Assembly: GCA_017514235.1 (NCBI GenBank) | Contig: JAFWKK010000023.1 | Coordinates: 1-59,753, forward strand | Direction of reading: 5' to 3' | From: Kiritimatiellia bacterium | GTDB lineage: Bacteria; Verrucomicrobiota; Kiritimatiellia; RFP12; UBA1067 | Length of the DNA: 59,753 nt | Shown here: piece after piece, positions 96 to 27,566 of the stretch | How positions within the stretch are numbered: position 1 is the first letter of the stretch | Layout: the number at the start of each line of letters is the position of its first letter | Program-made: the position numbers and the translations under genes | Notes under the pieces: generated by a model | What the model was told of the DNA's origin: nothing | Seen by the model: only the letters and a program-made list of their open reading frames with translations | Database searches by the model: none

Positions 96-3000
96 ATGAG
101 GAGATCATTGATACTGACATGCGCGGCGGTTGCCGCCGCAGCGTGCAATGCTGGCGACGTGTTCAGCGACGCGAAGTCGTGGCATCAAGGGTTCGTCGAC
201 GTTAACGGCGACGGCGTCATGAACGTCGGCAAGACGGAGTTTCCCGAATCGCTGCTTCTCGCCGACCCGAACAACGCCGCGCACAATGTCACGATTGGAA
301 CGATCTGGGGGAGCACTGCGGTTTCTGGCGTTCACACCAGCGTCGTCTTGCGTACGGAGAACGTGATCAATCCCTACACGAAAGTGAACTGGAGCGAGAC
401 TGTCGCCTATCTTCCGCAGGATGTGGCCATGGACGGCGACAAGCTGAAGTACTGGTCGGCGGGTGCGCATCCCGCTTCGCCGTTTACAGTTGATCTGACG
501 AAGGAGTGTACGTTCTTCATCCGTTTCAAGTGGAGCGGCGAATCTCCGGCAGGGAACGACATGCCAAACTACATTCTTGGTGCGGGCGACAGCGGTGTAT
601 ACGGCTTTGTTGTGTCTGTCATGAGCAATGGCTGCTACAACACCTATTCTGGCGGGATATGGAGCAAGACTTGGAATGGAACGTCGGATGTGAGGGTCAA
701 GCCGAACGAGTGGACGGACTTTGCCGTGACGGTCAAGAACAGGAAACTGACGATCTATTCGTATCAGGAGAGTTCTGATGATATTGCCACACTTGAGGTG
801 ACGGGTAATGCGACTACACGCACGGGTACGCCCAATGGCAATGTCCTTCTTGGCATTTCCATGGATGGTGCATGTGGATACGAGTGGAGCACGACGGCGG
901 GACGGCTGCGCGCTTTCCGCGGCAGCATCCAGTCATACGCGGCGTGGGAGCGGGCATTGAGCGCGGACGAGGTGCGTCAGGTGTTCGCGTGGCCTGCATC
1001 CGATCTTGTCAGGCTTGGCACGGCGAACGACAGCGCACAGGAGTTTACGGGCGGCGATGCTCCGACGACATTCAGCTTCGACGTGGCGGCGAAGGACGCG
1101 GGGCTGGCGCAGGTTCTGCGCATGACGGCTACATCTACATCTGCGGCCGGGACGTTCTCGGTCTCGTTGAACGGAGCGGCCATTGGTTCGCTCACGGTCT
1201 CGCCCGGCAAGACAGCGCTTTTCCCGATCAAGAAGAACCTGACCGTTGCCGGCGCGAACACCATAACGCTCACGCGCACATCGTCCGATCCTGTTGCGAT
1301 TGACGCGATTGCTCTCGGTGGCGGCATTCAGATCGGCAGCGCCAATGGCACCTCGTCCGAGTTTGCGCCGGAGACGTACGGCGGCAAGGTGTTCGCCGAC
1401 GTGAAAACCCTGCATCGCGGCGCGATTCCGTATCATGGCGACAACTGGGTTTACAACGTAACAAGCGTCAATGCGGAATTCCCCGAGTCACTTGACGGCA
1501 ACACGACCTCAAAGGCACACCTCGTCGCGTTCAATTCGCCCACGGAGGCCAGCCGGTGGTTCGGCACAAGCGGAACACATACAGGCATTCTCGTAAGGAC
1601 CGAGAGTGTCGTTTATCCTTATGCACGGAGAACTGAAAGCACCAAGGCACTCTACTTCCCGCAGGACACGGAAGACCAGGGCAACGGAACATATAAGTAC
1701 TGGACGTGCGGACTGCATCTCAACACGAACAACGTGCCGTTCATCCCGAAGTTCGACGCGGCGAACGACGCCTGTACGTTCTTCCTGCGTTTCCGCTGGG
1801 ACGGTACGGTGCCGATTCCCGGCAAGCCGGCGTATTTCCTCGGCACAGGCGACACGACAGGCGCGACATACGGTTTCAGTGTTGGTGTCACTGAAAATGG
1901 GCGCATCTTCTTCTATTCTCCGAAACCGAACCTCAGCAAGACTTGGAATGGGGAAGGTGATGTGACGATAGGCGCGAACAAGTGGACGGACTTTGCGATC
2001 ACGCTCGCGAACCGCAAGGTGATGATCTACGTCTATCAGGAAGATTCGTCATCCGTCGCCGTCATGAGTGCGACGGCGTCCGGCGCGTCGCCGAGTTCCT
2101 ATGCCGCCTGCAACAGCTTTGTCATCGGGCATAGCCGGACGGGTCTGGCCGGAGATACTTGGACAGGTAGTCAGGGCCGTGCCTACGGCTTCCGCGGCAG
2201 CATCCATTCGTTTGCGGCGTGGGAGCGCGCATTGAGCGCGGACGAGGTGAGACAGGTGTTCGCTTGGCCGGGTGAGCGGACGATCGCCAATCTCGGGGTC
2301 ATCAACGGCAGCAATGCCGAGTTCGGCGGCACGGGGACGGCAAGCTGGGCTGGCTTCACTGCTGGAACCGTAAGTGGCGCGGTCGACTGGTTCAACATGC
2401 GCGGCACCTTTACGGCGACCATGAACAGGCTCGGCATCACGAACTTCCCCATGACGGCCGACGACTTCGCGAACGGGCTGACGTTGCGCTTCTCCACAAC
2501 AGTCGCCTCGGACGCCTGCTCGTTCGACGTCTATGTGAATGACGCCAAGGCTGGCTCTCTCTCCAATGTTCCAGGCGGAATTGTGATGTTGGAGCTCGCC
2601 AAACATCTCTTCGTTGTCGGGAACAACAAGGTTGAGTTGCGTTTCGTCTCTTCGTCGGGCACGGTTTACACCGATGCGATCCAGCTCGTGCGCACGCAAA
2701 GTGGCGACTACTACGCGACAGACGGCGACCAGTCGGATTGCGCGTTTGGACACTACGAGATCGAAAACGGCGTGGAGACGCGCCAACCGACGAGCATCCA
2801 TGTTGACGTGCCTGACTGCGTAGCCGGGAACGGAAACTGCTTCGTCCGCGTTCAGATTAAGTTCGAGGGCGGCGCGGCGGCGCAGACGCTTGCACTTGCG
2901 GTCAATGACGCGGCGGAGCCGATCGCGACGTTCGCGGCGCCAGTGAGCGACGGGTTCAAGGTGTTCAAGGTGGATGTTCCGATATCCGCGCTTCGTGCCG

Positions 3001-3119
3001 GCGACAACGTGTTCACGCTCTCAAACGCCGCGAATGGCGAAGGAACGGCGTACCTCGACGTCGACTACGTCAGGATGGAGACGTGTATCCGCAGCGGCAT
3101 GGCCATCACAGTGCAATAA
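96..3119 (+). CDS. Large secreted protein with two LamG-like modules
   Basis: A 1007-residue exported protein. The first ~19 residues form a signal peptide (MRRSLILTCAAVAAAACNAG). Two concanavalin-A/LamG-like modules follow; each ends in the same phrase, WERALSADEVRQVFAWP, near residues 282-299 and 707-724. Between and after them lie beta-rich segments resembling carbohydrate-binding sandwich domains. The protein ends in a short hydrophobic tail, SGMAITVQ, that matches the ends of six other secreted proteins in this window. The start has AAGGAG about 10 nt upstream. It is first in a plus-strand run with a beta-strand-repeat protein and two glycoside hydrolases, so a surface glycan-binding role is inferred; no catalytic motif was seen. 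Confidence 0.8.
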   Translation: MRRSLILTCAAVAAAACNAGDVFSDAKSWHQGFVDVNGDGVMNVGKTEFPESLLLADPNNAAHNVTIGTIWGSTAVSGVHTSVVLRTENVINPYTKVNWSETVAYLPQDVAMDGDKLKYWSAGAHPASPFTVDLTKECTFFIRFKWSGESPAGNDMPNYILGAGDSGVYGFVVSVMSNGCYNTYSGGIWSKTWNGTSDVRVKPNEWTDFAVTVKNRKLTIYSYQESSDDIATLEVTGNATTRTGTPNGNVLLGISMDGACGYEWSTTAGRLRAFRGSIQSYAAWERALSADEVRQVFAWPASDLVRLGTANDSAQEFTGGDAPTTFSFDVAAKDAGLAQVLRMTATSTSAAGTFSVSLNGAAIGSLTVSPGKTALFPIKKNLTVAGANTITLTRTSSDPVAIDAIALGGGIQIGSANGTSSEFAPETYGGKVFADVKTLHRGAIPYHGDNWVYNVTSVNAEFPESLDGNTTSKAHLVAFNSPTEASRWFGTSGTHTGILVRTESVVYPYARRTESTKALYFPQDTEDQGNGTYKYWTCGLHLNTNNVPFIPKFDAANDACTFFLRFRWDGTVPIPGKPAYFLGTGDTTGATYGFSVGVTENGRIFFYSPKPNLSKTWNGEGDVTIGANKWTDFAITLANRKVMIYVYQEDSSSVAVMSATASGASPSSYAACNSFVIGHSRTGLAGDTWTGSQGRAYGFRGSIHSFAAWERALSADEVRQVFAWPGERTIANLGVINGSNAEFGGTGTASWAGFTAGTVSGAVDWFNMRGTFTATMNRLGITNFPMTADDFANGLTLRFSTTVASDACSFDVYVNDAKAGSLSNVPGGIVMLELAKHLFVVGNNKVELRFVSSSGTVYTDAIQLVRTQSGDYYATDGDQSDCAFGHYEIENGVETRQPTSIHVDVPDCVAGNGNCFVRVQIKFEGGAAAQTLALAVNDAAEPIATFAAPVSDGFKVFKVDVPISALRAGDNVFTLSNAANGEGTAYLDVDYVRMETCIRSGMAITVQ

Positions 3120-20919: not shown

Positions 20920-22674
20920 TCACATCGAAAAGTTAAGCTCCACGCGCATGAAATAGGCGCTGCCTGCGCTGGTCGGCGGACGGACGGTGATCCGCGCATT
21001 GCCACCCTCCGTCGCGTCAAGCGAAACTGTTTCAATGCCGTCGGGCGAGAACGTGCCGGGCGCGAGCGTCGCCGAGCCTTCAATAACGAGCACCTTCTCC
21101 AGGTTCGCCCTAAGCGTTTCCGCCGAGACGGAACCGCTACCGATGTTCACGCCCTTCACGCTCACCTCGAATTCGAACTTTCCGGCCTCGTTTGCTGGCA
21201 CGAACGACGCGATCCTGATGTCGTCCGAAACGAGATCCCCGCCGATCAGCGCATCCGCTCCGAGCGCGAACGACCGCCATGTGCTGCCAGAGTCCTTAAC
21301 AGCCTGCGCCGAGACCGTTCCGTTGGTTATCGACAGTGCCCATGTGCGATATGCGACATATTGTACGGCATTCGTAACGTTCGCCAGCAGACTCGCGTCC
21401 CCCGACCCAGCCAGTGCCGCAGCAACGGCCTCCGCGTCTGCATCCGTAGCCAGTTCCGGAATCGGATCGACAACAGCCGGCGTCCACGATATCGCGTCCA
21501 CCCATGCGCAGTCCTCGCCGTCGCCGTCGCCATCCCCATCCTTTACATAGAGCCATGAAAGCGTATGCGTTCCCGCCCCTGTCACCTCGAAAGAGTTCGT
21601 TGCCCAGTCTTCGTTGCCCATTAGATCGCCCTGCTGGACGCCGTCGATGCAGAACGCCAATCCATCAAAGACTATCCTTTTCAGAACCTCTCCAGACACC
21701 TTGCAGGAAAATGTCACCGTGCCAGGTCCGAAAACGACCGTCTCCAGCCGACTTGTCTGACTATGAGTGATTGCACCGCTCCGCAGGGCGTAGCCGTCTT
21801 CCGAAACACCAATCACGCGCGTCCATGCCGCATCGTCATCCGTAGTCGTGAACGTCTGCTCCGGCCAGTTCAAGTACTCCCCGAACGTCTGAGGCGCCTC
21901 CTCCTGCCATTGTGCCACCAGGCGCAACGCACCGTCAAGCGGATAGGACGAACCTGCCGCGTAAAGCGTAACGCCGTCGCTCCAGCCGAGGAACGCATGC
22001 ATCGGCCAGGTCAGCGTTCCCTGGCCTGGCAGGACGACGCATTCATCTGCGTAGGCAGTCACCGGCGCCGGCGGCGTCCCGTCTGTCGCGTCGCCAGCCG
22101 CAAACGTCAGCGTCACGGGATGCGCAACCGCTACATTCGCCAACCACGTGCTGTCTTCACCAGACGAACCGTCCTCGTCGCGCTGGAACACCCACCGCAA
22201 GACATGCTCGCCGTCGCTCGTCACATAGAAGGTCTGATTCGTCCAGTCCGTCTCGCCGCAGATGAAGCCCCGCCTCTCCCCGTCAACCGCGAACGAAAGA
22301 TAATCGAACGGACGGCCCTTAACGAGCGCCTCGCACGAGCACTTCCAGTCGAACGATACGCGGCATGCGTTCGTAACGACAGTCTCGACCCATGCCATGG
22401 AATCGTCGTCCGCAGAGAACTTCACAGACCTCCCGCCCGCCGCCGTCGCGTCGTCGCGCCCCGCAACCGCCGCCGTGCCGCTCGTGCCGGCCATCCACGG
22501 GAGGGATGCGGTTGTCGCGTCCGCCCCTAAAGCCTCGCCAATAGCATATGCGGACGATGCCGCACGGGCCGACCGACTCCAGACTGCTATCCGCAGGCCA
22601 AGATCCATCGCCGATGCGGAAACTGCGGTCCAGCATGCGGCAAGCAGCAAAACAACATGTCCGAGACGACTCAT
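20920..22674 (-). CDS. Secreted modular beta-domain protein, last gene of DGR operon
   Basis: 584 residues from the ATG at 22674 (GGAG 8 nt upstream); a GTG at 22683 adds three residues. Signal peptide MSRLGHVVLLLAACWTAVSASA. Two copies of a jelly-roll-like module are seen (VSFDWKCSCEALVKGRPFDYLSFAVDG near 105-130, and VTFSCKVSGEVLKRIVFDGLAFCIDG near 315-340); each is followed by W-rich strands (HVLRWVFQRDEDG, HTLSWLYVKDGDG). The tail ARITVRPPTSAGSAYFMRV is unlike the other secreted proteins. It starts 23 nt after the LRR gene, so it is probably co-transcribed with the DGR. I do not recognise a function; a surface or extracellular partner of the variable protein is one possibility. Confidence 0.65.
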   Translation of the reverse strand: MSRLGHVVLLLAACWTAVSASAMDLGLRIAVWSRSARAASSAYAIGEALGADATTASLPWMAGTSGTAAVAGRDDATAAGGRSVKFSADDDSMAWVETVVTNACRVSFDWKCSCEALVKGRPFDYLSFAVDGERRGFICGETDWTNQTFYVTSDGEHVLRWVFQRDEDGSSGEDSTWLANVAVAHPVTLTFAAGDATDGTPPAPVTAYADECVVLPGQGTLTWPMHAFLGWSDGVTLYAAGSSYPLDGALRLVAQWQEEAPQTFGEYLNWPEQTFTTTDDDAAWTRVIGVSEDGYALRSGAITHSQTSRLETVVFGPGTVTFSCKVSGEVLKRIVFDGLAFCIDGVQQGDLMGNEDWATNSFEVTGAGTHTLSWLYVKDGDGDGDGEDCAWVDAISWTPAVVDPIPELATDADAEAVAAALAGSGDASLLANVTNAVQYVAYRTWALSITNGTVSAQAVKDSGSTWRSFALGADALIGGDLVSDDIRIASFVPANEAGKFEFEVSVKGVNIGSGSVSAETLRANLEKVLVIEGSATLAPGTFSPDGIETVSLDATEGGNARITVRPPTSAGSAYFMRVELNFSM

Positions 22675-22697
22675 CTCCGGCACTCCATATATGCCCG

Positions 22698-23849
22698 TTA
22701 CTGAATGGCTTCAAGGTCCTCGCGCGAGACAAGGAACACCGTGTCTGCAACCCGCGTGATGGTCAGTATGCACTGCGTCTGAGCGGGGATCATAAGAGGT
22801 GCCGTCCCCTTGAACGCCATGTAGGTGTTGCCAGCAGGCAGGCTCAGCGTAACGGCGTTCGCCGCCGTGTTGCTGATGTACAGCACGGAGTCGTAGACCT
22901 TCCCGTCAGTCAACACGAACGAATCTATGTCACAGTCGCTGTCGACTGTCACGGACGCAATTGCCCTGTCCGCCACTCGATTGGTAATGTCATAGCGCGA
23001 CTCCACCTGCTGCACGATGGTCGTGGAGACCTGCGGCGAGCCACCGCCTGGCGTTCCGCCGCCGAAGATCACACGGTATAGCTGGCGCGTATAGGCAGGG
23101 CATCGCTCGAAGCAGTCAAGTCCAAACCTCGTCACGCTGTCCGGGATCGCCAGCGCCTCAAGCGATGAACAGTTGAAGAACGCCTCGTCTCCGATGCTCG
23201 TCACGGTATCAGGAATCGCCACACTCGTCAGCCCCGCGCATTCCTTGAATAGGGCATTTCCGATTCTCGTAACACCGTCTGCAACAACCACATTCGTTAT
23301 GGCTTGATACGCTGACGGGAAAACATCCGACAATGTTCTTTCGGTGCACACATATTGCGGTATAGTCACGCTCGTGATCGCGGCGCATCCTGAAAATACC
23401 GATGCTCCGATGCCCACAACGGGGAGTCCGTCAATCTCAGAGGGAATCGTGACATCGCCAGATGTCTTTGCAGCCAAAGTGATGATCGCGCCGCCATCAC
23501 TTGCCTCGTATTCCCAATCCTTGAAGAAGGTTGCCCTGTATACCTCTTCCTGCGCGACGTCGCCGACATATGTGGTATACGTGAGTTCATGCCGACAGCG
23601 GCTCGCGAGCAAGTACACCATCTCGCCCGCACCTGTTGTGCGCTTCACCTCAACGCCATTGTCGACGATCATGACGGTCGCATTGGCATCTCCGCCGATC
23701 CAAGATGCATCCCATGTAAGCGTGAGCGTGTCATTATCAACAAATGAAGGTCTGTCAGTGTCTAGCCGAATCGGCGCGGAATCCCCTGCGTATCCGATCG
23801 TCGCGGCAATAGCCACCGTCATCGTAACAGCCATTTTTGTCATTCTCAT
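22698..23849 (-). CDS. Secreted BspA-type leucine-rich repeat (LRR_5) protein
   Basis: 383 residues from ATG 23849, which overlaps the reverse transcriptase stop by 4 bp (ATGA), with AGGAGAGGT just upstream. Signal peptide MRMTKMAVTMTVAIAATIGYA, an N-terminal beta domain (RPSFVDNDTLTLTWDASW), then about four BspA-like repeats (GDVTIPSEIDGLPVVGIGASVFSGC, LTSVAIPDTVTSIGDEAFFNC, LEALAIPDSVTRFGLDCFERC) and a C-terminal beta domain. Such proteins are usually surface-exposed binding or adhesion proteins. Translational coupling to a DGR reverse transcriptase is unusual and suggests it is made with the retroelement. It carries no copy of the variable repeat. Confidence 0.8.
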   Translation of the reverse strand: MRMTKMAVTMTVAIAATIGYAGDSAPIRLDTDRPSFVDNDTLTLTWDASWIGGDANATVMIVDNGVEVKRTTGAGEMVYLLASRCRHELTYTTYVGDVAQEEVYRATFFKDWEYEASDGGAIITLAAKTSGDVTIPSEIDGLPVVGIGASVFSGCAAITSVTIPQYVCTERTLSDVFPSAYQAITNVVVADGVTRIGNALFKECAGLTSVAIPDTVTSIGDEAFFNCSSLEALAIPDSVTRFGLDCFERCPAYTRQLYRVIFGGGTPGGGSPQVSTTIVQQVESRYDITNRVADRAIASVTVDSDCDIDSFVLTDGKVYDSVLYISNTAANAVTLSLPAGNTYMAFKGTAPLMIPAQTQCILTITRVADTVFLVSREDLEAIQ

Positions 23850-25351
23850 CTTGTACCTCTCCTTTTCGTTTGAAATCTTTGAAGGCGCAACACATCGGGA
23901 TGAAATTTCAGACAATCGTCCTCAACCTCCCCGAACTCGCGCAGCCGCCCCTCCCAGACCAGCAGCTTACGCACATGCCAGCAGTCGTAGTGCGAGAGAA
24001 CGCCCAGCATGCTGTTTGCCCTCGCCTGTATCCGACGTGACCGCTCATGCCAGTCAAGCGACTTCATGCGCCCGCGTATCCTGCGCAACGACCGGGTCGA
24101 CGGATATGTGCGGTACGGCTTGACGTACGCTCCAAGAAACTCTACGCCCTTGTATGCATCGACAACACGCACCTTGTCCTCGTTCAGTTCAAGCTCAAGC
24201 CTATCACGCAGAAACCTCCTCGCGCACGACACGATTCCATAGAGTTCTTCCTTCGACGACGCCACCACAAACGCATCATCGACGTAACGCCCATAGTGGC
24301 GGCACTTCAGCTCGCGCTTCATGAAATCGTCCAGTACCCCGAGGTAGATGTTGCTGAAGAGTTGCGAAGAAAGATTGCCAATCGGAAGTCCACAGCCAGG
24401 CCGGGAATGGAAAAGCGACTTGTCCTTCGGCAATTTTTTCCATTCATTCCTATCGCCCAACACCCTGCAGTTCTCCACCGGGTTCAGCATGCAGATCGAT
24501 TCAAGAAGGTAATCTATAAGCTTCCAATCGAAATTTGCGATTTGTGATTTGCGAACTTTTGTGCCAATTGTCATTTGTGAACATCTAACCTTCCCTAGCA
24601 GTTTCCGGCAATGAGCCAACAGCCTCGCACGGTTGATGCTCATGAAGTATCCCTTAATGTCGAGCTTCAGAACATAACAGGGTTTAGTCCAATTCTGCGA
24701 ACAGGAGAAGACATGATGCTTAAGCCTTTCGACACCGTAATGTGTCCCGCGTCCCGCGATGCAACTGTAGCAGTCGGCGATGAACGTACGCTCGAAAAGC
24801 TTGTGCGTGTAGTTGTAGAAGAGATGATGCACCACCCTGTCGCGGAACTCCGCCGCAAACACCTCGCGCATCTTCGGATCGTGTATGATGAAACAGCTAG
24901 ACGGACGCGCCACGTAGCTCCGTTCCAAAAGCTCGTCCCTGAGACTCACCAGTTCCTGTTCCTGGTTCATCTCAAAATGTGTTTGGTAGAATTTGCTCCG
25001 CTTGTGCCACCTCGCATCCCGGTACGCCACGATCAAATCCTCCAAAAGGCCACGGTGCGGAACGCCGCCTTGCGGATCGGTGGTGAACACTTGGACAGGG
25101 CGAACAGGCTGCCCGTTGTTGCGGTTGTTGTTGTTCGTGTTGTGGTCGCTCGAATTGAAGTTGAGGTTCCACGCGTTGTTGTTGTCCGAGTTCGGGACGG
25201 ACGACCAGTAGTTGCCGTTCGAACCGGCATTGTTGAGCGAAGTCCCGTTGCCGTTGCCGGCGGCAGGGGCTCTTTCAGGCCGACCTTCTTCACTGGCGGA
25301 CGGATGTGGCATTACGGAACGTCCGTGCGCTTTCATGTCATTTACCGTCAC
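23846..25351 (-). CDS. DGR reverse transcriptase, with the template repeat translated in frame at its N-terminus
   Basis: 501 codons from a GTG at 25351 that overlaps the avd stop (GTGA). Conserved RT sequence begins near residue 105 (LLEDLIVAYRDARWHKRSK); before it lie about 28 codons, the TR-encoded Asn-rich segment and a short linker. RT motifs are REVFAAEFRDRVVHHLFYNY, RGTHYGVERL, LKLDIKGYFMSI (palm Asp), GLPIGNLSSQLFSN with the DGR-specific IGxxxSQ at 324-330, YVDD at 356-359 and ELELNEDKVRV. No maturase or HNH domain, so not a group II intron protein. If translation instead starts after the TR, only GTG or TTG codons near 25040-25100 are available. It copies TR RNA with adenine-specific errors and delivers the cDNA to the VR. 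Confidence 0.93.
   Translation of the reverse strand: MTVNDMKAHGRSVMPHPSASEEGRPERAPAAGNGNGTSLNNAGSNGNYWSSVPNSDNNNAWNLNFNSSDHNTNNNNRNNGQPVRPVQVFTTDPQGGVPHRGLLEDLIVAYRDARWHKRSKFYQTHFEMNQEQELVSLRDELLERSYVARPSSCFIIHDPKMREVFAAEFRDRVVHHLFYNYTHKLFERTFIADCYSCIAGRGTHYGVERLKHHVFSCSQNWTKPCYVLKLDIKGYFMSINRARLLAHCRKLLGKVRCSQMTIGTKVRKSQIANFDWKLIDYLLESICMLNPVENCRVLGDRNEWKKLPKDKSLFHSRPGCGLPIGNLSSQLFSNIYLGVLDDFMKRELKCRHYGRYVDDAFVVASSKEELYGIVSCARRFLRDRLELELNEDKVRVVDAYKGVEFLGAYVKPYRTYPSTRSLRRIRGRMKSLDWHERSRRIQARANSMLGVLSHYDCWHVRKLLVWEGRLREFGEVEDDCLKFHPDVLRLQRFQTKRRGTR
25082..25268 (-). repeat. DGR template repeat (TR)
   Basis: 187 nt that align with the VR at 26440-26635. On the sense (minus) strand the TR has 20 Asn codons (18 AAC, 2 AAT), giving maximal adenine targets. 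Boundaries are the shared CCCTGCCGCCGGC at the 5' side and the shared block GGGCAGCCTGTTCGCCCTGT plus CCAAG at the 3' side, the likely IMH region. At the 3' edge TR has GTG where VR has GGG (plus positions 25089 and 26447), a possible IMH/IMH* distinction. Differences are almost confined to adenines; exceptions are two G changes and two AAC tracts that are shorter than in the VR. Confidence 0.93.
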
Positions 25352-25881
25352 GGAGTCACCTCCGTATTCTCGGTCAGGTCGCCTTTTGCGGCGGTTGCGA
25401 CGGTCAGAGGGCTGACCGCCCTACCGCGTATTGGGTTCACCTTGTGGCTCGCTGCGCCTGGCCGCGACCCGGCGCATTCCGGCCTTCCGTCCGCAGGGGA
25501 CGGCGGTTCCGCACCGTTTGAAGTTCTGCTCCCCTTCACCGCGCTCTTGTGCCAGGCGGCAAGCTGCTTTCCGATCGATGCCACCTTCTCCATGAAGAAC
25601 GCCGCCTTCTGGACTCCGAGCTGATGCATGTCAGAGAGCAATCGAAAGTAGATTTGTATCTCCACCGCATCCCGGCGCAACTCCGCGATAAGCCTCACCT
25701 TGTCACTCCGCGACGAGTTCGCGCGATAGATCGTCACCATCATGTCGACCAGCGTCCTACTCAAATCCTGTGCGATGGTATAACGGGTATCGCGAGACAG
25801 CGAGCCACGCGCCTTGGCAAATTCCAGCGCCACTACATAGCAGTCGCGATAGACAGGCAGGTTGGAGTATAGCGCATTCAC
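25348..25881 (-). CDS. avd: DGR accessory variability determinant (Avd), with C-terminal extension
   Basis: 177 residues from a GTG at 25881 that overlaps the preceding stop (GTGA). Residues 1-115 (LPVYRDCYVVALEFAKARGSL, RTLVDMMVTIYRANSSRSDKV, QIYFRLLSDMHQLG) give four amphipathic helices with many basic residues, matching the Avd four-helix bundle that forms a pentamer and binds the reverse transcriptase and TR RNA. Typical Avd proteins are about 115-130 residues. The extra ~60 residues here are Pro/Ala/Ser-rich and look disordered; they carry the frame to the next overlap, at the start of the TR-RT ORF. Position between target and TR is canonical. Whether the tail has a function or reflects RNA structure needed near the TR is unknown. 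Confidence 0.85.
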   Translation of the reverse strand: MNALYSNLPVYRDCYVVALEFAKARGSLSRDTRYTIAQDLSRTLVDMMVTIYRANSSRSDKVRLIAELRRDAVEIQIYFRLLSDMHQLGVQKAAFFMEKVASIGKQLAAWHKSAVKGSRTSNGAEPPSPADGRPECAGSRPGAASHKVNPIRGRAVSPLTVATAAKGDLTENTEVTP

Positions 25882-26378
25882 ACCCCGCCGACCTCCCCGA
25901 TAAGCGCCTTGCGCATTTCGCTCAAAAACACCACCGCGTCGACCGGCGTCTTCGTCTCAAGCGGAAACTCGCGAATTTTCTTGCAGACCGCGCTCTCCAA
26001 CTCCCGTCCGACGAGCGGCGCCGCACTCGCATCTGCGCGCGACGCCACCTCTACCGGAACTTCCTTCGTCCACGCCTCGTAACCATCTTCGGCCGGAACC
26101 TCATCAGGCTTCAGCGTAATGTCATACCCGAAATCAGTCTTCTCGCAAACACGCCCGTTGATCAATTCTAGCAGCTTGCTGACAGGGAACCCCAGAAAAT
26201 ATACGTCCTTCTGCTGTGCCTTGGAGAACTTCCGTATCACCTTGTATCTCGATATGCAGCAGTAGAACAGCCACGCGCTGTGGTTGTAGGCGCGCACGAA
26301 TTCGCCCGATGTGATGAGCCGTACCTTGCCCGGCTCCACTTCGGACTCATACTTCAGGCTATTCTCTATGGACGCCAT
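25878..26378 (-). CDS. Unrecognised 166-residue protein coupled to avd
   Basis: Starts at ATG 26378, 55 nt after the target gene, and its TGA overlaps the avd GTG start. No signal peptide or membrane segment. Predicted alpha/beta with hydrophobic, aromatic stretches (HSAWLFYCCISRYKVIRKFS, KDVYFLGFPVSKLLELI) and a charged C-terminal helix region (ELESAVCKKIREFPLETKT). I do not recognise the family. Similar small genes between target and avd occur in some DGR cassettes, but I cannot assign homology from memory. Coupling implies fixed stoichiometry with Avd, so a second accessory factor for mutagenic retrohoming, or a chaperone for the target, are the reasonable ideas. Confidence 0.6.
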   Translation of the reverse strand: MASIENSLKYESEVEPGKVRLITSGEFVRAYNHSAWLFYCCISRYKVIRKFSKAQQKDVYFLGFPVSKLLELINGRVCEKTDFGYDITLKPDEVPAEDGYEAWTKEVPVEVASRADASAAPLVGRELESAVCKKIREFPLETKTPVDAVVFLSEMRKALIGEVGGV

Positions 26379-26433
26379 GGGGACCTAAAAAGAATAAAAG
26401 AATTGAAGAATTGGATGCGCTCACGTTTGTTCG

Positions 26434-27429
26434 CTATTCGGTGAACCCTTGGACAGGGCGAACAGGCTGCCCGTAGTTGCGGTAGGGGCCGTAGTCGTCC
26501 GTGCCGTGGCCGCTCGAATTGAAGTGGAGGAGCCACGCGCGGTAGCTGTAGTCCGAGGACGGGACGGACGAGCAGTAGTAGCCGAACGAAACGGCATCGT
26601 CGAGCGAAGTCCCGTGGCCGCAGCCGGCGGCAGGGAGGAAGATGCTATTCGAGGCATAGTCGTCCCGACCGTGAACGACATAGCCTCTCACGCCGTTCTT
26701 CGTCGTCCACGTCCAGTCGCATTTGCTGTTGAGGTCGGAGAGTTCCTGTATCGTCGGCATTCGCCAGGCTCCGCCCCAGTGCACATGCGCCGCGTCATGC
26801 TCTGGTACGAGGATGCTATCCGCTGTGATCCAACCTTCGCTTTGCAAGGTTGTAATATCCTTATTCCATGTCGGTGTAGTGCCCGAATCGAACGAGAAGT
26901 TCGACGAAGAGCCGTCCGTTGCCACCCATGCATTGTTTTCGCGCTTGTAGCCGACCGTGTCGCCCCACCAGAAATAGTAGCCGTAGTCTTCGGGATTTTC
27001 CGCACCGATATTCGTATCTGCCCAATACGGGCCACCTTCCCAAAGCTGGACTCTGTCGTGAAGACCAACGACATTGACTCGCACAACAATGTTATCGTAG
27101 GTCACTCGTCCAAGGTCGGCAGTCGCATCCCAAAGCAACCGATAATTACCGTTGGTATGCACTTGCCTGTCGGTCGATCTTGCGCCATTCTGCATAACCC
27201 AGAAAGAAACAGGACGGGCATTCCCAGCATTCGGCATCACCGCCGCCACGGTGAACTTGAGTCCGTTGGTCGTTCCGTTTATCCCTGTCACTCTGCAGGA
27301 AATGTCCACGAGCCCGTTCCACGGATACCGTTGTTTCGCAACGACATCCGTCACCTCCGGCTCGGCGACAAGAGTCAAACCCGTCGCCACCGTCAGAATT
27401 ACACCCAGTATGATTTTATTGATGCTCAT
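26434..27429 (-). CDS. DGR variable target protein, secreted, C-type-lectin/FGE-like fold
   Basis: 331 residues; ATG at 27429 with AAGGAG 8 nt upstream. Signal peptide MSINKIILGVILTVATGLTLVA. Residues ~24-125 form a beta domain (AKQRYPWNGLVDISCRVTGI, YRLLWDATADLG). From ~150 the sequence matches the FISUMP/formylglycine-generating-enzyme-like C-type lectin fold: WGGAWRMPTIQELSDLNSKCDWTWTT, YVVHG, NSIFLPAAG. Residues ~266-330 are the VR, ending GQPVRPVQGFTE, where VR positions form the ligand-binding surface in this fold. Variable residues now read Cys, His, Asp, Asp, Phe, Tyr, Ser, Tyr, Leu, His, Gly and so on where the TR has Asn. It probably displays a diversified binding site outside the cytoplasm. 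No lipobox or anchor is visible. Confidence 0.93.
   Translation of the reverse strand: MSINKIILGVILTVATGLTLVAEPEVTDVVAKQRYPWNGLVDISCRVTGINGTTNGLKFTVAAVMPNAGNARPVSFWVMQNGARSTDRQVHTNGNYRLLWDATADLGRVTYDNIVVRVNVVGLHDRVQLWEGGPYWADTNIGAENPEDYGYYFWWGDTVGYKRENNAWVATDGSSSNFSFDSGTTPTWNKDITTLQSEGWITADSILVPEHDAAHVHWGGAWRMPTIQELSDLNSKCDWTWTTKNGVRGYVVHGRDDYASNSIFLPAAGCGHGTSLDDAVSFGYYCSSVPSSDYSYRAWLLHFNSSGHGTDDYGPYRNYGQPVRPVQGFTE
26440..26635 (-). repeat. DGR variable repeat (VR)
   Basis: 196 nt at the 3' end of the target gene, ending 6 nt before the stop codon's end. Compared with the TR, 18 of 20 Asn codons are changed, requiring at least 20 adenine substitutions; invariant codons (GGC, TCG, GTC, CCG, GCG, TGG) are those lacking sense-strand A. 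Non-adenine changes in the core number two: GGT to GTT and TGG to TGC. The VR is 9 nt longer than the TR, in two AAC runs: 26482-26499 (6 codons against 4) and 26539-26550 (4 against 3). Confidence 0.93.
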
Positions 27430-27440
27430 TTGCCTTCTCC

Positions 27441-27566
27441 TTATTTCTTGGCTTCTGATTGGCTCTTGCCGGAGTTTGAGTTAGACCCACTCAAACCATT
27501 GACATCCCAAGTCGTAGCCAACGCCATCATCGGCATCAGCACCATCGCCATCATGAGTTTCTTCAT
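27441..27566 (-). CDS. Small secreted peptide (41 aa) heading the DGR target operon
   Basis: ATG at 27566 with GGAAGGAA about 9 nt upstream. The peptide has a textbook signal sequence, MKKLMMAMVLMPMMALA, followed by a 24-residue hydrophilic mature part (TTWDVNGLSGSNSN and a Lys/Ser/Gln-rich end). The TAA lies 11 nt before the target ATG, and the target's ribosome site occupies the gap. Small size makes coding uncertain, but signal peptide, ribosome site and spacing all agree. It may be a companion of the variable protein or a translational leader. No family recognised. Confidence 0.6.
   Translation of the reverse strand: MKKLMMAMVLMPMMALATTWDVNGLSGSNSNSGKSQSEAKK

Follow-up and report, generated by a model that had tools for sequence, protein, structure and literature searches.

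The DNA stretch analysed here, 59,753 nt from a Kiritimatiellia bacterium (contig JAFWKK010000023.1, assembly GCA_017514235.1; hereafter, the window), carries on its minus strand (27429-23846) a complete diversity-generating retroelement (DGR), in which the target gene with its variable repeat (VR), an accessory open reading frame (ORF), avd, the template repeat (TR) and the reverse transcriptase (RT) gene follow one another in this order. The function of this DGR is ordinary; what is less so is that the TR is nested in the RT reading frame, downstream of a conserved RNA that includes the RT start codon. With a probability of roughly 75% for the explanation as a whole, we propose that this is a chromosomal DGR diversifying a family of C-type-lectin-like proteins, most of them secreted or located at the surface, in which a single transcript would be both the RT mRNA and the mutagenesis template, and RT translation would be coupled to that of avd. 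The original prediction for this DNA had already announced a complete DGR, and the four parts it named, RT, Avd, TR and VR, were all located; its points are ordinary for DGRs, and it overlooked the position of the TR inside the RT ORF, behind the conserved RNA with the RT start, along with the greater length of the VR, four further VR genes and the accessory ORF.

Adenine-directed variation and five VR genes

Comparison of the TR with the VR of the adjacent (cis) target gene yields 27 mismatches in 187 aligned bases, of which, counted by template base as the original prediction had advised, 24 fall on A, 2 on G, 1 on T and none on C. Adenine makes up 51 of the 187 aligned template bases, and its excess among the mismatches is significant (hypergeometric p 3.5e-13). 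The prediction that change falls nearly always at sense-strand A thus holds, with three changes elsewhere, and codon alignment returns exactly the 18 changed Asn codons, of 20 in the TR, that had been claimed. The observed pattern is the one expected if, as in established DGRs, TR RNA is reverse-transcribed by the RT with errors at adenines and the resulting complementary DNA (cDNA) is substituted for the VR in the 3′-terminal part of target genes. The same adenine pattern recurs in related loci (28/29, 25/27, 22/22, 29/30 and 22/22 TR/VR mismatches at template A in L053, L061, L054, L055 and L056, respectively), so that retrohoming, also claimed at the outset, has happened.

The RT ORF carries both of the predicted motifs, IGNLSSQ and YVDD, the motifs of DGR RTs being [IL]GxxxSQ and YxDD. 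The profile searches that had been recommended matched the RT to phrog_1423 (‘Reverse transcriptase’, 1.1e-82) and Avd to NF033474 (6.9e-10), phrog_3206 (‘Avd protein of DGR’, 2.4e-13) and bAvd (4e-08), the Avd scores being below the curated cut-offs of Pfam and NCBIfam. The best PDB sequence match of the RT is 8ub7 (‘Reverse transcriptase’, 328 aa, 1.2e-42), which we take to be the BPP-1 enzyme. A position outside the DGR clade had been named as the finding that would speak against a DGR; in a tree of 33 RTs, the window RT groups with DGR and phage DGR-type RTs (28 in all, including BPP-1 brt on a long branch), apart from five YADD RTs (100/100).

The genome to which the window belongs (G000; 3.96 Mb, 82 contigs) contains one RT match, one avd match and five VR genes; four of these lie outside the window contig, on C25 (locus L048, 4967-5156), C36/C16 (L049/L052), C74 (L050) and C73 (L051). 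In these four VRs, 25/27 (C25), 19/28 (C36), 29/42 (C74) and 25/50 (C73) mismatches are at template A. Five VR genes alongside a single RT are thereby documented in a Verrucomicrobiota genome, with a reservation about C73, which, given its weak adenine bias and L061-like 3′ end, may no longer be served by the window RT. Relative to the TR, the cis VR has 9 additional bases (3 codons), within AAC runs, and all five VRs exceed the TR by 1-3 codons in such runs; the simplest reading would be that the AAC tract of the TR changed in length after the VRs were written, the latter having kept the older lengths. Contig C16 starts with the remainder of the C36 target gene, and the two contig ends share exactly 141 bases within the VR gene. 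This break inside the VR resembles the branching of an assembly graph at a variable site and is the only hint, albeit not a proof, of population diversity. Hairpins 3′ of VR stop codons were caught by the search pattern at 7 of 15 places (four targets of the window genome and three related ones); all seven fold, three have the strong form, and C36 is among those not caught. As a DGR feature, hairpins after VR stops are suggestive only.

Nesting of the TR in the RT reading frame

The TR corresponds to about residues 28-90 of the 501-aa RT ORF and is read there in the VR frame. The TR is likewise in frame within the RT ORF in L053, L061 and L054-L057 (in L057, the VR lies off the contig and the TR was recognised by sequence only), preceded in each case, as in the window, by a leader of 28-31 codons that begins with M(T)VN; with four loci found by the RNA model described below, the same nesting extends to 11 loci. 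One upstream RT start, M(T)VN, is common to all 11, and in 7 of them there is no ATG, GTG or TTG between the TR and the RT core. The window holds a single GTG (codon 88) in this interval, with no Shine-Dalgarno-like run before it; its upstream RT GTG is preceded by GGAGGTGA with a 4-base gap. The frame is kept despite changes in length: leaders have 28-31 codons (10 of the 11 loci measured) and linkers 16, 17, 22, 23 or 24 codons (17 in the window, from the last Arg codon of the repeat to the RT core), and in L157 (1523-2923) an internal in-frame deletion in the TR leaves the RT frame open. It is, thus, strongly indicated that the ribosome making the RT must read through the TR.

One could instead regard this as an ordinary DGR whose RT starts after the TR, in the window at the GTG of codon 88, with the in-frame fusion being an accident of a stop-free, AAC-rich TR. 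Indeed, the TR by nature lacks stops in the VR frame, TR/RT overlap in phages occurs in other frames, and the overlap of the TR with the 5′ end of the RT ORF seen here belongs to the recognised position class DiGReF group 3, which is defined by overlap at either the 5′ or the 3′ end. However, the lack of a start codon after the TR in 7 of the 11 loci, the upstream M(T)VN common to all of them and the measured leader and linker length changes that keep the frame render a start after the TR quite unlikely.

Nesting takes other forms elsewhere. In two Bacteroidales loci (L122 and L123), the TR lies in the RT ORF without a leader match. Among more distant DGRs from the same genus or order, 6 of 9 loci (L063, L064, L066-L069) have the TR within the 3′-terminal part of the RT ORF, and in 4 of these 6 it is in the VR frame (L067, the VR of which is cut, being assigned by resemblance). 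An HRDC-like accessory ORF was noted by eye in some members of this second DGR lineage. Loci L145-L147 and L149 yielded no complete RT and are outside the counts.

A structured RNA leader at the 5′ edge of the template

Analysis of seven leaders with RNAalifold gave 19 pairs in three helices, 17 of which form in the window leader. In an 11-row leader alignment, fitted to the structure first drawn from 7 of the same 11 loci, 96.2% of the 209 pair cells are standard, as against no more than 62.4% when partners are slid, and double changes occur at 10 pairs. Double-change cells number 30, compared with 7.9 in shuffles (0/500 shuffles as high), although the set holds close pairs (window/L053, L054/L057 and L157/L158) and the covariation cells are not independent events.

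An RNA model built from the seven loci (R1) was used to search 399 + 173 genomes and found 8 places in 7 genomes, 4 of which had already been used for the model. The four new loci (L153, L154, L157 and L158, the last first met as L150 in an earlier R1 scan of DGR loci) are all situated at the 5′ end of DGR RT ORFs that contain the TR in frame, with a VR protein, an accessory ORF and avd upstream of the RT, and 24/24, 20/20, 13/14 and 14/14 of their TR/VR mismatches, respectively, are at A. In other DGR loci, R1 matches were confined to further copies of these cassettes and to three weak, chance-like places (14.6-17.2 bits). A second model (R2), built from eight Bacteroidales loci only and with its own predicted structure, has the same three helices; across the whole window, with E up to 5, its one match (25387-25276, 18.2 bits, E 0.02) is the leader, and it also matches L053 (E 0.0003). 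The leader RNA is kept in Verrucomicrobiota and Bacteroidales metagenome-assembled genomes (MAGs).

Sliding RNAalifold over 10 codon-aligned ORFs (columns to 750 of 1620; L057 was excluded as a near-duplicate of L054 that holds N) gave -10.6 kcal/mol at the leader (z -6.0), -5.9 to -6.9 kcal/mol where the scanned segments still overlap it and 0 to -2.7 past residue 118. Around and just after the TR end, at RT residues 75-157 (about 25130-24880), values of -2.4 to -4.5 kcal/mol (z -3.7 to -16.8 against codon shuffles) point to a possible small recurring hairpin, which could be a 3′ priming region. A conserved RNA structure downstream of the TR, as a counterpart of the BPP-1 spacer, was considered and rejected, the sliding signal being weak outside the leader.

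Rfam gave no credible match in the window, RT-7 included. The Rfam RT-7 RNA (RF03028) nevertheless has a layout similar to that of the window leader, an outer helix around two hairpins, and RT-7-like and RT-15 (RF03018) RNAs are likewise placed 5′ of the TR in DGR relatives; unlike RT-7, the window leader, which RT-7 does not match, carries the RT start codon. Bacteroidales members of the lineage match RT-7 at 30-39 bits, below the 116.8-bit cut-off, in all cases at the leader. Of the other Bacteroidales DGR loci, 5/11 match RT-7 at 44-111 bits, also below the cut-off, 5′ of the TR; the match abuts the TR edge in L127, L130 and L135, whereas in L126 and L138, where the TR was only partly detected, 73-90 bases lie between the two. 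In 4 of these 5 loci the TR is wholly outside the RT ORF. In five phage DGRs, RT-15 matches above the cut-off and ends at the TR. The analysis accordingly locates RT-7-like RNA upstream of the TR in five Bacteroidales DGR loci, and RT-15 in five from phages. It is likely, judging from these positions, that the template-leader RNA is ancestral and that the RT start came to lie inside it later.

These RNAs bear on another explanation, namely, that the leader is a translation attenuator of the RT only and plays no part in the template ribonucleoprotein. The leader does hold the RT start and, in the window, a ribosome-binding site, as an attenuator would; but the RT-7-like RNA 5′ of the TR in loci where, with one exception, the TR lies outside the RT ORF, and the RT-15 that ends at the TR in phages, fit a template-linked role, and we consider a pure attenuator unlikely.

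Judging from its changes, the leader of the window/L053 pair behaves as nucleic acid, not as protein: silent changes are 0/18, 10/28 residues differ, and changes at the three codon positions number 6, 6 and 3, compared with 61, 36 and 146 in the RT core. The corresponding values are 4/13 silent and 8, 10 and 12 for window/L061, 3/24 silent and 3, 3 and 4 for L054/L057, and 4/18 silent and 4, 6 and 11 for L055/L056. If the Asn-rich peptide that the TR encodes on the RT N-terminus had a function of its own, the maintenance of the in-frame state in two phyla would be readily explained. However, the leader codons of window/L053 lack third-position bias (a pattern less marked or missing in the remaining three pairs), part of the TR is gone in L157, and phage relatives read other frames; a functional TR-encoded peptide was set aside on these grounds and is very unlikely.

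The RT start codon and a possible switch

Minimum-energy folds of the window, L053 and L061 leaders have a shared layout (z -2.1, -3.4 and -3.2, respectively), with an apical hairpin of 7 bp and a GUGA loop inside helix 2. In this predicted hairpin, the Shine-Dalgarno-like GGAG pairs with CUCC, and the GUG start with UAC; in L061 the respective partners are CUUC and CAC. The hairpin overlaps the last codons and the stop of avd, so that a ribosome finishing avd would open it.

In the mechanism that we favour, the RT gene would start upstream of the TR, inside the three-helix leader, and the ribosome making the RT would cross the TR, while the leader, kept as RNA, presumably serves as a binding site for RT/Avd or sets the end point of cDNA synthesis. 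Two further steps, which we hold to be about evenly balanced between right and wrong, are that ribosomes finishing avd open the hairpin, such that the RT would be made in step with Avd, and that the folded, untranslated transcript would remain as the template. The predicted fold speaks for Avd-RT coupling and for an alternative between translation and use as template, without amounting to proof of either. The strictest version, in which one fold controls one RNA, the leader at the 5′ edge of the template hiding the RT start and rendering translation and template use mutually exclusive, is tentative, and we lean slightly against it; if true, it would amount to a built-in switch for the timing and amount of hypermutation. 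To our knowledge, how DGRs limit self-inflicted mutation is an open question, and an RT start within the conserved fold of the template RNA makes mutation control testable by point mutations.

Several observations weigh against the favoured explanation as a whole. In near relatives (L058-L060 and L124) the TR is located outside the RT ORF, and in four phage relatives it sits within the RT ORF in a frame that differs from that of the VR; in-frame nesting is, thus, not needed for a DGR, and reading through the TR may simply be tolerated. Moreover, 4 of the 11 loci, including the window, hold a possible start between the TR and the core. As for the RNA, the further-pair-types measure was reached in 24/500 shuffles, R2 matches the window only modestly (18.2 bits), with an equal-score match in L124 that looks like chance and L061 missed, and the leader overlaps the end of avd, the codons of which also constrain the leader sequence. 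Non-silent change is in clear excess in the window/L053 pair only. Finally, the Bacteroidales folds lack the apical hairpin of the window and have the AUG paired in helix 2 instead, and the sequestration of the RT start is itself a fold prediction.

Relationship to known systems

The BPP-1 DGR (avd-TR-brt) and that of the window have in common the RT grouping, Avd, the TR between avd and the RT, adenine-directed change and, as far as the relevant part of PMC3240598 describes it, hairpin-like sequence after the VR stop. In BPP-1 (NC_005357), 144 bases lie between the TR (2887-3020) and brt (1756-2742), whereas the window TR is inside the RT ORF; unlike BPP-1, the window genome also has four VR genes on other contigs and an extra accessory ORF. 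TR/RT overlap has been recognised as a position class, and multiple and distant VRs have been described, in DiGReF (group 3; PMC3521204, 2012), in which, as in the window, TR and RT ORF overlap at the 5′ end of the latter; the group 3 sections of that article contain no discussion of the start codon, translation through the TR or an RNA leader. The start-codon argument, the conserved leader with the RT start inside it and the model of coupling come from the present analysis, and the accompanying search of open-licence literature cannot exclude an earlier description of these or of the nested TR.

The accessory ORF, kept beside avd in relatives, is perhaps MutS-domain-I-like, of the MSL type. 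The MSL accessory protein has been tied to PF01624 in the portion of PMC10053308 concerned with it, and the likeness to the MSL/HRDC accessory proteins of that study consists in MutS_I matches in 5/6 homologues (E 0.004-0.04, below the Pfam cut-off), in 4 of which MutS_I is the best match; in the fused L060 ORF it is second to bAvd. The window accessory ORF itself has no MutS_I match in the Pfam scan, and a profile comparison with MutS domain I is weak (P 0.014, probability 3.1). In L060 (2440-3180), the MutS-I-like accessory and Avd parts are fused in one open frame.

Spread of the RT family

A contig scan for relatives of the RT recovered nine loci, namely, RUG14821 (L053, 86%), Verrucomicrobia UBA3783 (L061, 78%) and seven Bacteroidales MAGs (46-56%), which form one clade with the window (99/98). 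The RT ORF of L061 is identical with that of G017, a genome of the same genus as the window, and kinship with UBA3783 places the window genome in the Verrucomicrobiota. Some RT match is present in 16 genomes of a genus-centred set of 97, a close one only in G000 and G017; among 387 genomes drawn evenly from the phylum, these two match at 1e-40. This patchy spread across two phyla suggests horizontal transfer. No relative of the window RT was confirmed in viral contigs, and phage records gave only RTs less than 60% identical to it; a prophage origin was considered and rejected, nothing having pointed to it, the window being without gene-by-gene annotation. In L059 (1765-3252), the RT has a repetitive insertion between its IGNLTSQ and YVDD motifs.

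Target proteins

The original prediction described a secreted FGE/C-type-lectin target with the VR at its end. The VR is indeed at the C-terminal end of target gene 1 and the start is signal-peptide-like by eye, whereas the domain assignment stands less firmly: the cis (C12) target of 331 aa matches Lcl_C at 7.2e-06, below the Pfam cut-off, Lcl_C matches being obtained for all four targets scanned, each below the cut-off, and a sequence search of the PDB gave no convincing relative. The remaining targets differ in architecture, with an InlB-type repeat and an Ig-like domain in C25 (420 aa), BspA-like repeats by eye in C36/C16 and a kinase-like N-terminal stub by eye in C74 (326 aa); the C73 target (329 aa) adjoins a 1495-aa BspA/InlB-type protein. 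Ser/Thr-kinase-like N-termini were seen by eye in two places, the short stub of L050 (4011-4991) and a 1016-residue VR frame in L071 (1081-4128), another genome of the same order as the window.

Locus layout and neighbouring genes

Positions of all features are given in Table 1. The span 20920-27566 originally assigned to the element encloses all core parts, but the two downstream genes that it takes in are not core. Stop-to-start overlaps (GTGA) at 25881, between the accessory ORF and avd, and at 25351, between avd and the RT, look as in a translationally coupled operon.

Table 1. Coordinates of the DGR parts and downstream genes in the window.
Feature	Positions	Strand	Basis and remarks
Target gene 1	26434..27429	-	ORF, 331 aa, C-terminal VR, signal-peptide-like N-terminus by eye
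VR of target gene 1	26440..26635	-	TR/VR comparison, 24/27 mismatches at template A
Accessory ORF	25878..26378	-	166 aa; stop overlaps avd GTG; perhaps MutS-domain-I-like (MSL type)
avd	25348..25881	-	177 aa; profile matches
Structured RNA leader of template	25276..25395	-	avd 3′ end, RT start and RT leader codons
Helix 1 of leader	25279..25383	-	25383-25377 with 25285-25279; 6/7 positions pair in window
Helix 2 of leader	25344..25374	-	25374-25371 with 25347-25344; 4/4 pair; encloses RT start
Apical hairpin	25349..25366	-	25366-25360 with 25355-25349, GUGA loop; 7/7 pair; minimum-energy fold
Helix 3 of leader	25300..25326	-	25326-25319 with 25307-25300; 7/8 positions pair in window
TR	25082..25268	-	inside RT ORF, in the VR frame
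RT ORF	23846..25351	-	501 aa; GTG start overlaps avd stop; RT core from ~residue 102 (25048)
BspA-type leucine-rich-repeat gene	22698..23915	-	LRR_5 6.8e-20; downstream, associated, not core
587-aa ORF	20920..22683	-	unassigned; 3′ of BspA-type gene, not core DGR part

BspA-type or long ORFs adjoin the RT or a VR target in the window (23915-22698), L053 (5712 on), L061 (5667 on) and L051 (4865-9352), as judged from LRR_5 or InlB-type matches in the window and L051 and by eye in L053 and L061, where the longer ORF after the RT has ~1500 aa; these neighbours are perhaps partners of the variable proteins. A neighbouring gene of the window (20614-18437) is alpha-L-rhamnosidase-like, in agreement with the remark on glycans in the original prediction.

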